Assembly: GCF_000701345.1 (NCBI RefSeq)
Contig: NZ_KL370776.1
Coordinates: 253,321-317,320, forward strand
From: Bradyrhizobium sp. URHD0069
GTDB taxonomy: Bacteria > Pseudomonadota > Alphaproteobacteria > Rhizobiales > Xanthobacteraceae
DNA: 64,000 bases
Reading direction: 5' to 3'
Shown: positions 5,724-20,270 of the stretch, piece by piece
How the letters are laid out: every line of letters starts with the position of its first letter
Numbering within the stretch: the first letter of the stretch is position 1
The notes under the pieces: generated by a model
The model's database searches: none
Told to the model about the DNA's origin: nothing
What the model saw: the letters and a program-made list of their open reading frames with translations, nothing else
Program-made: the position numbers and the translations under genes

Positions 5724-6042
5724 AGTGGAGGCTTCTGTTGCCAGGTGCCTCCGAACCCCGCCTAGCGGAGCTTAACCCACTAGGACTTTAGACTTGGTCT
5801 TTCAAACCGCTTACGCGGCCTGAGCAACCGGAGCATAGTTGTCGTTTGCAACTATTGCATAGCCCGATAACGGCGGAACAATACCGGGAAAAAACACGCC
5901 CTTTACGCCCTCGTCGATCCTGTTTCGCCCCCGCCGAAACCCGCGCATCTTGCGGCGGGCTTGGGTGGAGGCGCCGGGTGCTGCCCCCGGGTCCGAATGG
6001 TTTATTGCGACGGCACTTTATTTCCATAGCCGGCGAACCGGC
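5724..6042 (-). ncRNA. ssrA: Circularly permuted two-piece tmRNA
   Basis: Rescues stalled ribosomes by adding a degradation tag. Read on the minus strand, the acceptor piece comes first (about 6042 to 5964), ends with 3' strand CGCCTCC plus discriminator A and CC (5973-5964), and has a T-arm stem CCGGG/CCCGG with loop GGCAGCA. After a 31-nt intervening segment (5963-5933) the coding piece begins with GGGGGCG (5932-5926), which pairs with CGCCTCC to form a 7-bp acceptor stem with a G3-U wobble, the alanine identity element. The tag reading frame (5849-5811) encodes ANDNYAPVAQAA then TAA. The coding piece closes with a GGAGGC/GCCTCC stem (5752-5727). A TATATT -10-like box lies at 6054-6049; no good -35 is seen. 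Exact ends are inferred. Confidence 0.93.
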
Positions 6043-6231
6043 ACTCCTAATATAGGGTGCAAAATTTGAGAAAAATAGAGCCCCTGCGGGGGCTTCCGCC
6101 GCAAAAACGCTGGCGGCGTCGGTTTCAAACAAGGGCGGGACGTGCCGAGTTGGGTGGCCCTGATGATGCCAGCTGATTCGCTGACGGCTGCCATTGCGCC
6201 GCCGGGGATTGTTTGGGTTTTGCTGGCCTTA

Positions 6232-15508: not shown

Positions 15509-16402
15509 CTAAATCCCGACAAACTCCTCGCGCCGATACCCCTGCGCATAGAGCAATGCCGAGAGATCGCCGTGATCGATCCGCGCTGCCGCCACCGCTG
15601 CGACTGCCGGTTTGGCGTGGTAGGCGACGCCGAGGCCGGCGGCCTGGATCATGCCGAGATCGTTGGCGCCGTCGCCGACCACCAGCGTGTCGATCTCGTC
15701 GAGATCGAAGGATTCGCGCAGCTCGACCAGCGTTGCGAGTTTGGCCGCGCGGCCCAGGATCGGCTCGGCGACCTCGCCAATCAGTTTGCCGTCCTGCACC
15801 AGCAGTTCATTGGCCCGGTTTTCCTGAAACCCGATCATGGCCGCGACCGCGTTGGTGAAGAGCGTAAAACCGCCCGAGATCAGGCAGGTCCAGGCGCCGT
15901 GGGCGCGCATGGTCGCCACCAGTTCGCGGCCGCCCGGCGTTGCCGTGATGCGTTTCTTTAAGACTTCATCGACCACGCCGACCGGCAGGCCCTTCAACAG
16001 CGCGACGCGCTCGCGGAGCGCCGGCTCGAACTCGATTTCACCGCGCATCGCACGTTCGGTAATCGCGGCGACGTGCGCTTTCAGCCCGGCAAAGTCGGCC
16101 AGCTCGTCGACGCACTCCTGGCCGATCATGGTGGAATCCATGTCGGCCAGAAAAAGCTTCTTGCGCCTGACAGCCTGAGGCTGCACGACAATATCGATCG
16201 GCAAATCGCCGCGCGCCTCGCGCAGTCGTTTTTCGACGCCGCGGATATCGTCGCTGCCGGCGAAGGGAATGTCGACCGCCACCCCGTTGAATAGCCATTG
16301 TGCCGGACCGGGCGAGGGGAGAATGGCGCGCGCGCCATCCACGACCGTGCTATCGAGCGCGGGGGCGGCGGGATTGCAGATGAGGGTGGCGACGAGAGAC
16401 AT
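15509..16402 (-). CDS. serB: Phosphoserine phosphatase
   Basis: Last step of serine synthesis: phosphoserine to serine. 297 residues from [14 protein letters not shown]-superfamily motifs: '[19 protein letters not shown]' (nucleophile Asp in DxDST), '[13 protein letters not shown]' (motif II Ser), and '[24 protein letters not shown]' (motif III). The N-terminal 100 residues form the ACT-like SerB extension. The ATG at 16402-16400 overlaps the miaA ATG on the other strand within CATG; the open frame continues upstream to 16561 but the extension is the mirror image of miaA. Confidence 0.95.
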
Positions 16403-17366
16403 GCCGGTGAATTCGCCAGAGGTGAGCAGCAAGGCCGTGCTTATCGCAGGGCCGACCGCCAGCGGCAAGTCGGCGCTGGCGCTTGAGCTGGCGCAGAAAA
16501 CCGGCGGCGTCATCGTCAACGCCGATTCGATGCAGGTGTATCGCGATCTTCGCGTCATCACGGCGCGGCCGACGCCGCAAGAAGAGGCCGCGGTGCCGCA
16601 CCGGCTCTATGGCCATGTCGATGCCGCGGTGAATTTTTCGGCGGGCGCATGGGAGGCCGATGCGGGCAAAGTGCTTGCGGAAGCATGGGCGCAAAACCGC
16701 CTGCCGATTTTCGTGGGCGGCTCCGGGCTGTACTTCAAGGCGCTGACGCGGGGATTGTCGGCGGTGCCGCCGATTCCGCCGGAGATCCGCGAAAGCGTGC
16801 GCGCGCGGCTGGAACGCGACGGCGTCGAGGCGCTGCATGCCGAGCTTGCGGGACGCGATCCGGCATCCGCCGAACGGCTGAAGCCGCGCGACCGCACCCG
16901 CATCGCGCGCGCGCTCGAGGTGGTGGAGGCGACGGGGCGTTCGCTGCCCGACTGGCATCGCGAGGGATTACCGCCGCTATTGCCACCGGGCCAATTCAAC
17001 GCGCTGTTTCTGGCGCCCGATCGCGACGAGCTCTATGCCCGGATCGATGTGCGTTTTAGTGCGATGCTGGAGAGCGGCGCGCTGGAGGAGATCACTCGCC
17101 TGGCGGCGCGGCGCCTCGATCCGCTCTTGCCGGCAATGAAGGCCCATGGCGTGCCGGCGCTGATCCGGCATATCCGCGGCGAGATCACGCTGGACGAGGC
17201 GACCGTGATCGGCCGCGCCGATACGCGTCACTACGCCAAGCGGCAGTTCACGTGGTTTCGGCATCAACTGCCGGAATTCGAGTGGGTGAAGCTGGAGGAG
17301 GCGGGGGGATGGATCTCCACTGTCATTCCGGGGCGCGACCGAAGCAAACGAGCCCCGAATCCATAG
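16401..17366 (+). CDS. miaA: tRNA dimethylallyltransferase
   Basis: Adds the isopentenyl group to A37 of tRNAs reading UNN codons. 321 residues; P-loop '[17 protein letters not shown]', then '[24 protein letters not shown]', '[19 protein letters not shown]', '[18 protein letters not shown]' and '[23 protein letters not shown]'. The start MPVNSPEV is chosen for homology; an alternative ATG lies at 16380. The last 14 codons and the stop come from an inserted dispersed repeat. Confidence 0.95.
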
Positions 17367-17534: not shown

Positions 17535-17562
17535 TTGACTTCTGGGGTCGGGCGGCTATAAG
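17535..17562 (+). promoter_or_regulatory. Sigma-70-type promoter of the ilvBN leader
   Basis: TTGACT, 16-base spacer, TATAAG. A start near 17569 would place the leader ATG about 26 bases into the transcript, as expected for an attenuated operon. Confidence 0.7.
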
Positions 17563-17594
17563 TCGCGCAACCTTTGGGAAGTTCGAGCGGTCAT

Positions 17595-17660
17595 ATGCGT
17601 AATAAAATTACCAAACTGCTTATCGTCGTCGTACCCAGGCGCACCGCCGGGGATGGCTAG
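17595..17660 (+). CDS. ilvL: ilv leader peptide (transcription attenuation)
   Basis: A 21-codon ORF whose middle (17616-17633) reads Leu-Leu-Ile-Val-Val-Val, six branched-chain codons in a row, followed by PRR and a TAG stop. The stop lies in the loop of a strong hairpin (GGGATGGC-TAG-GCCATCCC), itself enclosed by GCACCGCC/GGCGGTGTGC arms, and a terminator hairpin follows. This is the layout of a ribosome-mediated attenuator: stalling at Leu/Ile/Val codons when those tRNAs are uncharged should prevent the terminator. Too short for standard gene calling. The ribosome-binding site (GGGAAG) is weakly placed. Confidence 0.85.
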   Translation: MRNKITKLLIVVVPRRTAGDG

Positions 17661-17687
17661 GCCATCCCAAATTCGGGCGGTGTGCAT

Positions 17688-17709
17688 GGGGCCTCTTGGG
17701 CCCCTTTTT
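17688..17709 (+). terminator. Attenuator terminator of the ilv leader
   Basis: Stem GGGGCC / GGCCCC with a 5-nt loop followed directly by TTTTT, 55 bases before the ilvB start. A canonical intrinsic terminator in front of a gene is a strong sign of conditional readthrough. Confidence 0.88.
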
Positions 17710-17764
17710 ATTTTCCAACCTCAACTGAAGAAAGCCGCTGACAACAGCGCATCCGGAGCAAGCC

Positions 17765-19540
17765 ATGAGCGACAAGAGCCACGATCCGAACCAGATGACC
17801 GGCGCAGCGATGATCGTGCGGGCGCTGATCGATCATGGCGTCAAGCACATCTTCGGTTATCCCGGCGGCGCGGTGCTTCCGATCTATGACGAGCTTTTCC
17901 AGCAGAGCGACATCGAGCACATCCTGGTGCGGCACGAGCAGGGCGCCGGCCACGCTGCCGAGGGCTATGCGCGCTCCACTGGAAAGCCGGGCGTGGTGCT
18001 GGTGACGTCGGGGCCGGGCGCCACCAATATGGTGACGCCGCTGACGGACGCGCTGATGGATTCGATACCGCTGGTGTGCATCACAGGCCAAGTGCCGACG
18101 CACCTGATCGGCAACGACGCGTTCCAGGAATGCGACACCGTCGGCATCACCCGTCCCTGCACCAAGCACAATTGGCTGGTGCGCGACGTCAACGATCTCG
18201 CCAAGGTGCTGCACGAGGCGTTCTACGTCGCGAGCACGGGTCGTCCCGGCCCCGTGGTGGTCGATGTGCCGAAGGATGTGCAGTTCGCGATGGGCACCTA
18301 TCACCCGCCGCGCAAGTCCGACGTGCACGTGTCGTATACGCCGCGCATCAAGGGCGATGCGGCGCAGATCCGCAAGGCCGTGGCGCTATTGGCCACCGCC
18401 AAGCGTCCGGTGATCTACAGCGGCGGCGGCGTCATCAATTCCGGACGCGAAGCCTCAAAGCTGTTGCGCGAGCTGGTCGAGGCTACCGGGTTTCCGATCA
18501 CCTCCACCTTGATGGGTCTTGGCGCTTATCCGGCGTCGGGCAAGAACTGGCTCGGCATGCTCGGCATGCACGGCACTTACGAAGCCAACATGGCGATGCA
18601 CGGCTGCGACGCAATGCTGTGCGTCGGCGCGCGCTTCGACGACCGCATCACCGGACGCACCGATGCGTTTTCGCCGGACTCGAAGAAAATCCATATCGAC
18701 ATCGATCCGTCCTCGATCAACAAGAACATCCGCGTCGATATTCCGATCATCGGCGATGCCGCCAGTGTGCTCGGCGATCTCCTGCAGGTGTTCAAGGCGG
18801 AGGCGAAAAAGCAGGATATCCGGCCGTGGTGGCAGGAGATCGCGAAATGGCGCGCGCGCAATTCGCTGTCGTACAAAAAGAACAACGATATCATCTTGCC
18901 GCAATTCGCCATTCAACGGCTGTTCGAGGCGACGCGCGGCCGCGACGTCTACATCACCACTGAAGTCGGCCAGCACCAGATGTGGGCGGCGCAATTCTTC
19001 GGCTTCGAGGAGCCGCATCGCTGGATGACCTCGGGCGGTTTGGGCACCATGGGCTATGGCCTGCCGGCGGCGGTCGGCGTCCAGGTCGCGCATCCGGATA
19101 GCCTCGTGATCGACATCGCCGGCGACGCCTCGGTGCAGATGACGATGCAGGAGATGGCGACGGCGATACAATACGAATTGCCGATCAAGATCTTCATCCT
19201 CAACAACCAGTATATGGGCATGGTGCGGCAGTGGCAGCAGTTGCTGCATGGCAACCGGCTGTCGCACAGCTACTCCGAATCGCTGCCGGATTTCGTCAAG
19301 CTCGCCGACGCCTTCGGCTGCGTCGGGCTGCAGGCCATCAAGCCCGGCGACCTCGACGGCGCCATCAAGGAGATGATCAACGTCAAGCGCCCGGTGCTGT
19401 TCGATTGCCGGGTGGCGGCGCTGGAAAACTGCTTCCCGATGATCCCGTCCGGCAAAGCCCACAATGAAATGCTGCTGCCGGCGGAAGCCAACGACGAAGC
19501 CACCGCCACGGCGTTTGCCGGCGGCAAGGCGCTGGTGTGA
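17765..19540 (+). CDS. ilvB: Acetolactate synthase, large catalytic subunit
   Basis: Thiamine-diphosphate enzyme joining two pyruvates, or pyruvate and 2-oxobutyrate: the committed step to Val, Leu and Ile. 591 residues. Three domains are recognisable: the N-terminal PYR domain with 'FGYPGGAVLPIYDEL' and catalytic Glu in 'VRHEQGAGHAAEGYAR'; the central FAD-type domain with 'PVIYSGGGVINSG'; and the C-terminal PP domain with 'GDASVQMTMQEMATAIQY...ILNNQYMGMVRQWQ' (ThDP/Mg signature). GGAG lies upstream of the start. Controlled by the leader attenuator above. ilvI is an equally used name. Confidence 0.96.
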   Translation: MSDKSHDPNQMTGAAMIVRALIDHGVKHIFGYPGGAVLPIYDELFQQSDIEHILVRHEQGAGHAAEGYARSTGKPGVVLVTSGPGATNMVTPLTDALMDSIPLVCITGQVPTHLIGNDAFQECDTVGITRPCTKHNWLVRDVNDLAKVLHEAFYVASTGRPGPVVVDVPKDVQFAMGTYHPPRKSDVHVSYTPRIKGDAAQIRKAVALLATAKRPVIYSGGGVINSGREASKLLRELVEATGFPITSTLMGLGAYPASGKNWLGMLGMHGTYEANMAMHGCDAMLCVGARFDDRITGRTDAFSPDSKKIHIDIDPSSINKNIRVDIPIIGDAASVLGDLLQVFKAEAKKQDIRPWWQEIAKWRARNSLSYKKNNDIILPQFAIQRLFEATRGRDVYITTEVGQHQMWAAQFFGFEEPHRWMTSGGLGTMGYGLPAAVGVQVAHPDSLVIDIAGDASVQMTMQEMATAIQYELPIKIFILNNQYMGMVRQWQQLLHGNRLSHSYSESLPDFVKLADAFGCVGLQAIKPGDLDGAIKEMINVKRPVLFDCRVAALENCFPMIPSGKAHNEMLLPAEANDEATATAFAGGKALV

Positions 19541-19685: not shown

Positions 19686-19727
19686 GCGGAAATGACACGA
19701 CGAACAAGAGAGCGACAGGGAATTAAG

Positions 19728-20270
19728 ATGAACCAGCCCGCCTCCGCCTACTTCATGGAAGACCGCCATGATCCGATCGAGTTTCATACGCTCTCGGTGC
19801 TCGTGCAGAACGAACCGGGCGTGCTCGCGCGCGTGATCGGGCTGTTCTCCGGCCGCGGCTACAACATCGAAAGTCTCACCGTCTCCGAGACCGAGAACCA
19901 GAAGCATCTCTCCCGCATCACCATTGTCACCACGGGCACGCCGATGGTGATCGAGCAAATAAAACACCAGCTCGATCGGATGATCCCGGTGTATCGCGTC
20001 GTCGACATGACGCTGAGCGGCCGCTCGATTGAACGCGAACTGGCGATGGTGAAACTGCGCGGCACCGGCGATCACCGTGTCGAGGCGCTGCGCCTGGCGG
20101 AGGCGTTTCGCGCCCGGGTGATCGACGCCACCACCGAAAGCTTCGTGTTCGAGATCACCGGCAACTCCGCCAAGATCAACCAGTTCATCGACCTGATGCG
20201 CCCTCTCGGTCTGGTCGAGGTCTCGCGCACAGGCGTCGCCGCCATCGGCCGCGGGCCGGAGGGGATGTGA
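19728..20270 (+). CDS. ilvN: Acetolactate synthase, small regulatory subunit
   Basis: 180 residues from MNQPASAYF. An N-terminal ACT domain 'HTLSVLVQNEPGVLARVIGLFSGRGYNIESLTVSETENQKHLSRITIVT' binds valine for feedback control; the C-terminal ALS_ss domain is 'ERELAMVKLRGTGDHRVEALRLAEAFRARVIDATTESFVFEITGNSAKINQFIDLMRPLGLVEVSRTGVAAIGRG'. It stimulates IlvB. Alternative start at 19692 lies in the repeat-flanking sequence and is rejected. Confidence 0.95.
   Translation: MNQPASAYFMEDRHDPIEFHTLSVLVQNEPGVLARVIGLFSGRGYNIESLTVSETENQKHLSRITIVTTGTPMVIEQIKHQLDRMIPVYRVVDMTLSGRSIERELAMVKLRGTGDHRVEALRLAEAFRARVIDATTESFVFEITGNSAKINQFIDLMRPLGLVEVSRTGVAAIGRGPEGM

Follow-up and report, generated by a model that had tools for sequence, protein, structure and literature searches.

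The interval between miaA and ilvB in Bradyrhizobium sp. URHD0069 raises two questions, namely whether expression of the acetolactate synthase genes is under the control of a short leader peptide and, if so, by which change in RNA structure a translating ribosome would exert that control. We examined the interval as part of a window of 64,000 nucleotides, by which we mean the whole stretch of DNA that was analysed. The initial annotation had described the site as a textbook ribosome-mediated attenuator. With high confidence, we read it from the comparative evidence as an attenuator through which the leader ribosome controls ilvBN transcription and which would sense charged Leu, Ile and Val tRNA. 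To the explanation as a whole, in which this attenuator is switched through a single hairpin and a short helix at its base, P0, we assign a probability of roughly 0.6.

Table 1. Features of the ilvB leader region and neighbouring genes (window coordinates)
Feature	Position	Strand	Basis
Promoter: TTGACT, 16-nt spacer, TATAAG	17535..17562	+	Sequence read; genus comparison
Leader ORF MRNKITKLLIVVVPRRTAGDG, 21 codons, ATG at 17595, stop TAG at 17658-17660	17595..17660	+	Sequence; frame conservation in the genus
Control codons Leu-Leu-Ile-Val-Val-Val (CTG CTT ATC GTC GTC GTA)	17616..17633	+	Sequence; codon counts
P0 5' strand CCCA (Pro codon plus A), partner 17687-17690	17634..17637	+	Folding; swap test
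P1 5' strand GCGCACCGCC	17639..17648	+	Predicted fold; covariation
P2 hairpin GGGATGGC-TAG-GCCATCCC, apical loop is the stop codon	17650..17668	+	Predicted fold
P1 3' strand GGCGGTGTGC	17676..17685	+	Predicted fold; covariation
P0 3' strand TGGG, shares the first three G of the terminator 5' arm	17687..17690	+	Folding; swap test
Intrinsic terminator GGGGCCT-CTT-GGGCCCC + TTTTT	17688..17709	+	Terminator scan; genus reading
RF02502 (Atu_C8) match, full model, 31.5 bits (gathering score 50)	17603..17719	+	Rfam search
ilvB, acetolactate synthase large subunit	17765..19540	+	Score above NCBIfam cut-off
ilvN, acetolactate synthase small subunit; span from the ORF list, start possibly more internal	19692..20270	+	Score above NCBIfam cut-off
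miaA, upstream gene on the ilvB strand	16269..17366	+	ORF list; profile score

Direct reading bore out the parts that had been described before. The promoter, with its sigma-70-like boxes at 17535-17540 and 17557-17562, and the leader of 21 codons with six consecutive branched-chain codons were right to the base, and the terminator (stem 17688-17704, U-run 17705-17709) does end 55 nt ahead of the ilvB start codon. The stop codon had been placed within a hairpin loop, which agrees with the predicted fold: UAG makes up the 3-nt apical loop of the inner hairpin P2, and P2 is enclosed by P1, a helix of 10 bp. A consensus promoter scan, which requires the -10 box to end in T where this promoter has a G, gave no promoter ahead of the leader. 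Three features characterize an attenuator in the broad sense, and all are present here: a small leader ORF that contains consecutive Leu/Ile/Val codons, an intrinsic terminator between that ORF and ilvB, and an operon (ilvB and ilvN) for the biosynthesis of the sensed amino acids. Elsewhere in the window, an alpha-proteobacterial tmRNA gene is located at 5724-6081 on the minus strand, where the permuted tmRNA family also matches.

Conservation among close relatives had been set beforehand as a check, with loss of the control codons or of the terminator as the outcome that would count against an attenuator; both are kept. The region was recovered by DNA search in all 60 sampled genomes of the genus, its own included, and leader and terminator could be read in every one of them (two batches of 30). 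Among the genus leaders, the reading frame survives synonymous changes (GTC/GTA, CTC/CTG, AAT/AAC) and replacements among Leu, Ile, Val and Ala, and insertions or deletions of whole codons in the control run at three loci (L023, L160, L172) leave it intact. All 26 distinct genus upstream stretches of sufficient length carry the motif TTGACN-16 nt-TAT[AG] ahead of the leader, compared with 0.13% of shuffles. One might take the leader for a chance ORF ahead of an ordinary miaA terminator, given that miaA is encoded on this strand and stops at 17366, but a conserved promoter separates the two, the frame and the codons are conserved, and throughout the order the element keeps its association with ilvB (it was ilvB that was tracked, not miaA). 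With this conservation, such a reading appears very unlikely. In two genus genomes (G019, locus L163; G031, locus L179) the DNA match breaks between the terminator and ilvB, where about 105 extra bases are found. The segment 17533-17572, which holds the promoter and the first transcribed bases, recurs elsewhere with 83-85% identity over 40 nt in 4 of the 60 genomes (G008, G014, G016, G026).

One set of loci that we read numbered 105: 30 from the genus (L151-L180), 70 that came from the family search, and five more, of which one belongs to another family. A leader and a terminator were found in 97 of them, including two (L209, L212) in which they were misassigned; the other eight were dropped (L191, L192, L204, L207, L216, L222, L223, L225). 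Five of 119 sequences were dropped for want of a leader (L065, L068, L070, L071, L072), five cases with a misassigned leader or terminator or of another kind were excluded (L051, L073, the first copy in L064, L209, L212), and L114 and L115 repeat other loci. The resulting dataset contained 188 distinct leaders, of which 83 are Bradyrhizobium-like. A search of the class with our own model gave matches in 4 of 289 genomes, this one among them, and as the first pass scored at most 14 candidates per genome, absence outside the order is weak evidence. For other orders of the class we took the best 28 ilvB loci out of 63 genomes with a match. Leader, hairpin and terminator occurred together at one of them (L257), and at another (L243) a leader-like ORF was present and no terminator was found.

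The choice among synonymous codons in the control run is strongly biased. Of the 83 distinct Bradyrhizobium-like leaders, 79 have GTA as their last Val codon, a codon used for only 2 of 184 Val residues in six window genes, and in the rest of the order GTA fills 133 of 191 Val positions of the control runs. CTG is rare in the control runs of both groups (19/293), while it is the commonest Leu codon in the six window genes (109/208). This bias fits the argument, made in a paper on the sensitivity of attenuators, that control codons need a choice among synonyms (PMC1183508).

The same region is matched by an Rfam family, RF02502 (Atu_C8), that is classified as an sRNA. In a search of a 401-base stretch, model positions 1-122 were aligned with an E value of 1.4e-4; the match covers the full length of the model and its score is below the gathering score. 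Across the order, 144 of 249 genomes gave a match, 37 of them over the cut-off, as compared to none of 14 control genomes. We examined 89 of the 149 listed hits, a non-random selection that comprised the best hits in 30 genomes plus chosen families, second copies and many weak hits. Of these 89, 81 are located at most 300 nt upstream of ilvB, at a median distance of 49 nt, and 84 contain a leader with Ile, Leu or Val codons, some of them spurious (e.g. L073). The position of these 81 hits speaks against an independent small RNA gene. Since the hits precede ilvB and carry such leaders, the "sRNA" at these sites is, judged from sequence, the leader of the attenuator, and the RNA seen would be its terminated form. 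Six weak hits with neither ilvB nor an efflux gene next to them (L065, L068, L070-L073) look like chance matches or ordinary terminators. In the one library of papers that was searched, no link between RF02502 and ilvB was found; a second occurrence of the string RF02502 turned out to be part of an unrelated ORF number.

The classification by Rfam also bears on the idea that the terminator is free of control by Leu, Ile and Val, with the RNA or the leader peptide acting in trans and ilvB being expressed by steady readthrough. A precedent comes from the S. meliloti trp attenuator, for which both an RNA (rnTrpL) and a peptide (peTrpL) that act in trans are described (PMC7298713). We consider this improbable as a full account, in view of the conserved Ile/Leu/Val runs, the biased codon choice, the fixed spacing to the hairpin and the position ahead of ilvB of most RF02502 hits examined; a role in trans is in any case compatible with one in cis.

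A few copies of the element are found in other settings. Attenuators of the ilv type precede a Bcr/CflA-type MFS efflux gene rather than ilvB at three loci (L039, 1501-1621; L062, 903-1022; L233, 1501-1599), one of which is from another order. The first two, with the leaders MMIAIDMVVVGRRMGTAA (L039) and MKIAMVLIVVIERMGGMA (L062), are among eight RF02502 hits without ilvB and the third is a hit of our own model; the efflux gene at L062 scored 163 bits, which is below the family cut-off of 200.9. One genome (G281, L064) has two ilvB paralogs about 2.7 kb apart, each with an attenuator, and in another (G082, L061) an additional copy of the attenuator precedes an ilvB. The sequence TATTGCC just past the U-run is conserved in the order (consensus TTTTTTATTGCC), and the window, which has TTTTTATTTTCC at 17705-17716, departs with its genus from this consensus in the last part.

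Helix P1 is supported by covariation. In an alignment of 48 sequences, 92.7% of P1 cells were standard pairs and changes on both sides were seen in 8 of the 10 pairs. For P1 and the terminator jointly, we counted 85 double-change cells as compared to 30.3 in shuffles (0/500), while the count of double-change pairs was less striking (11 versus 8.5 in shuffles, 18/500). When strands were swapped among 86 leaders, own partners paired better than those of other species, with z values of -19.7 for P1, -16.6 for P2 and -10.5 for the terminator arms, all calculated without regard to kinship. Despite these kinship-blind statistics, the changes in P1 are many and varied. In a covariation scan of the ilv leaders, the highest ranks went to P1 and to a single pair of the terminator; there were also scattered single pairs, but no third helix.

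The geometry of the hairpin is also constrained. Folding from just past the last control codon gave a stable enclosing hairpin in 187 of 188 distinct leaders, with a median of -33.5 kcal, and folding of whole leaders placed P1 in the same columns. Of the 187 leaders, 178 have a stop codon that overlaps the apical loop, and in 127 P1 starts exactly 5 nt past the last Ile/Leu/Val codon. When the A site is occupied by the last control codon, this gap places the first pair of P1 at +11 from the P site, the position of the ribosomal helicase. Because of this spacing, a ribosome waiting on the control codons would touch the hairpin without opening it, while one at the stop codon would have to open it. 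Most simply, this would make the closed hairpin the state that allows readthrough.

The E. coli scheme is defined by a mutually exclusive antiterminator, with alternative pairings of segments 1:2, 2:3 and 3:4. To search for such a structure, we compared the computed advantage of the terminator with a ribosome on each control codon to that with the ribosome on the stop codon. Stalling reduced the advantage in six of six E. coli control leaders, by between 5.1 kcal (his) and 15.8 kcal (ivb), and by 4.7-13.5 kcal in six trp leaders from the same order. The latter represent 6 of 12 TrpE loci over the cut-off, being those with a leader and a strong terminator; three of the others had no terminator (L268, L273, L275), one had no leader (L274) and two had weak stems only (L266, L276), of which L266 showed no change in the test. 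No antiterminator was recovered for the ilv family as a whole, the median change being -0.1 kcal in 188 leaders, of which 11 changed by at least 5 kcal. These values are for a ribosome footprint of 11 nt, and repeats with footprints of 8 nt (median -0.4, 24/188 at 5 kcal or more) and 14 nt (median 0.3, 7/188) gave a similar picture. The folding of alternative structures that the initial annotation had proposed as a check thus failed to produce the expected mutually exclusive antiterminator in this family.

Searches for individual pairings gave a similar picture. None of the pairings of the terminator 5' arm with the 5' UTR, the control codons or the strands of P1 and P2 beat swapped sequences beyond a z of -0.6, and the 3' strand of P1 paired with the terminator 5' arm less well than swapped (z +4.4) and shuffled sequences in 86 leaders. 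This avoidance fits a terminator that must work after the opening of P1. When ensembles were folded by alignment column with the terminator forbidden, no pair touching the terminator exceeded a mean probability of 0.16, and the stretch past the control codons did not prefer its own conserved UUGCC past the U-run (swap z 0.2). Two upstream pairings did beat swapped ones. The 3' strand of P1 with the terminator 3' arm gave -6.00 kcal as compared to -5.69 swapped (z -3.4), with shuffled sequences stronger at -7.81, and the control codons with the 3' strand of P1 gave -4.00 versus -3.42 kcal (z -4.0). As P1 lies past the last control codon, a stalled ribosome would mask little of the segment that would correspond to segment 1, and no 2:3 antiterminator was computed to form on stalling in the family.

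It could still be that the ilv leaders are of the classic E. coli type, the stalled ribosome covering segment 1 and a 2:3 antiterminator pre-empting 3:4 through a pairing that escapes the folding models. All remaining parts match that scheme, the trp attenuator of S. meliloti is so described (PMC7298713), and the two upstream pairings above could be counted in its favor. The same test was nevertheless positive in all E. coli controls and in the six trp leaders of the same order and not in the ilv leaders, the 3' strand of P1 pairs poorly with the terminator 5' arm, and a ribosome on control codons that precede P1 masks little of it, for which reasons we regard this type as rather unlikely. Of the initial description, ribosome-mediated attenuation of ilvB stands on comparative evidence from codons, frame, hairpin, terminator, promoter and position, but the E. 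coli-type antiterminator implied by the word textbook was not recovered in the ilv family by a test for which the controls were positive. We see no support in the models for placing the ilv family in the E. coli scheme, since that antiterminator was not seen; the family probably reaches the same end.

For the Bradyrhizobium-like genomes, a swap test supports P0 as a candidate antiterminator. This short helix extends the base of the hairpin and takes up three G's of the terminator 5' arm. The codon after the last Val is a Pro codon in 75 of the 83 distinct leaders, CCC in 70 and CCT in five, and never CCG, which accounts for 88 of 120 Pro codons in the window genes. An uninterrupted P0 helix of at least 4 pairs can form in 61 of 75 distinct sequences and one of 3 pairs in the other 14, and the fourth base covaries with its partner, as CCCA/UGGG, CCCU/AGGG and CCUU/AAGG are all present. 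Native strands paired with -6.24 kcal, versus -5.78 kcal for swapped ones (z -5.2, 0/2000 permutations, n=75, kinship ignored). In the rest of the order P0 was not found, the pairing of the stretch past the control codons with the terminator 5' arm having a swap z of +2.8, which leaves the closed hairpin with no link to readthrough there.

Energy calculations for the window leader gave P0 a limited role. With a ribosome on Leu8 to Ile10 the terminator is still favored by about 4-6 kcal, as compared to 6-7 kcal with the ribosome at the stop codon, and the terminator 5' arm is paired with probabilities of 0.43-0.59 and 0.54-0.56, respectively. Folding by itself does not separate the two modeled states. 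With such similar values in both, P0 would not be a switch by folding alone, and kinetics or the opening of P1 by the ribosome would have to supply the switching. When the ribosome occupies the final two or three Val codons, it masks P0 and the terminator becomes more favored (11.9-13.8 kcal), which in the model is the wrong direction for a response to Val starvation.

Taken together, the sequence comparisons support the leader, its codons, P1, P2, the terminator, their position and the covariation of P0, and we infer stalling, hairpin opening and readthrough on the closed hairpin. Our tentative proposal for the mechanism is that one long hairpin, P1 around P2 with P0 at its base in the genus, is the element switched by the ribosome. 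When amino acids are ample, the leader ribosome would reach the stop codon in the apex and open the hairpin, whereupon the terminator would form and transcription would stop, leaving a short RNA like Atu_C8. When Leu, Ile or Val is short, the ribosome would wait on the control codons just upstream and the hairpin would stay closed; P0 would then hold the first G's of the terminator 5' arm and RNA polymerase would read into ilvB. A polymerase contact or a steric effect is a possible link between the closed hairpin and readthrough. We think it unlikely that the leader hairpin itself is the antitermination signal, acting through RNA polymerase or sterically on the adjacent terminator without base pairing. 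On that reading, a ribosome waiting at any control codon would abut the hairpin and leave it closed, and arrival at the stop codon in the apex would switch it off. If this is true, readthrough should occur without translation of the leader, opposite to E. coli trp. Attenuation of ilv genes in the Hyphomicrobiales may run without a textbook antiterminator. The attenuator would very probably raise the output of acetolactate synthase when Leu, Ile and Val run short.

The element in the window is the ilvB/ilvI attenuator of the Hyphomicrobiales, which is already known in the alpha-proteobacteria. The ilvB leader peptide of this group is referred to as "previously described" (PMC1273637) and an ilvIH element of S. 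meliloti is listed (PMC2573895), both with citation of Vitreschak 2004; as cited there, that attenuator is like ours in gene, bacterial group and the presence of a leader before ilvB. The ilvBN attenuator of Caulobacter crescentus (Tarleton 1994, as cited in PMC4117421) has a comparable plan, in which Ile and Val codons stand in tandem in the leader and a terminator follows before ilvBN. In this genome and in a genus mate, the trp leaders are similar to the peTrpL of B. japonicum (PMC7298713). Atu_C8 is like the window in its leader region, P1, P2, terminator and place before ilvB, but has been classed as an sRNA gene and not as an attenuator. RF02502 is included in a benchmark list (PMC5913331), so that a family in benchmark use as "sRNA" would be the leader of a branched-chain attenuator. 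The E. coli leaders of ilvGMEDA, ivbL, leuL, trpL, thrL and hisL share control codons, a terminator and a leader peptide with the family in the window, but unlike it they display an antiterminator in the folding test. On the present computed evidence, the lack of that antiterminator, the geometry of the hairpin and P0 would make the element in the window a variant of the known attenuator.
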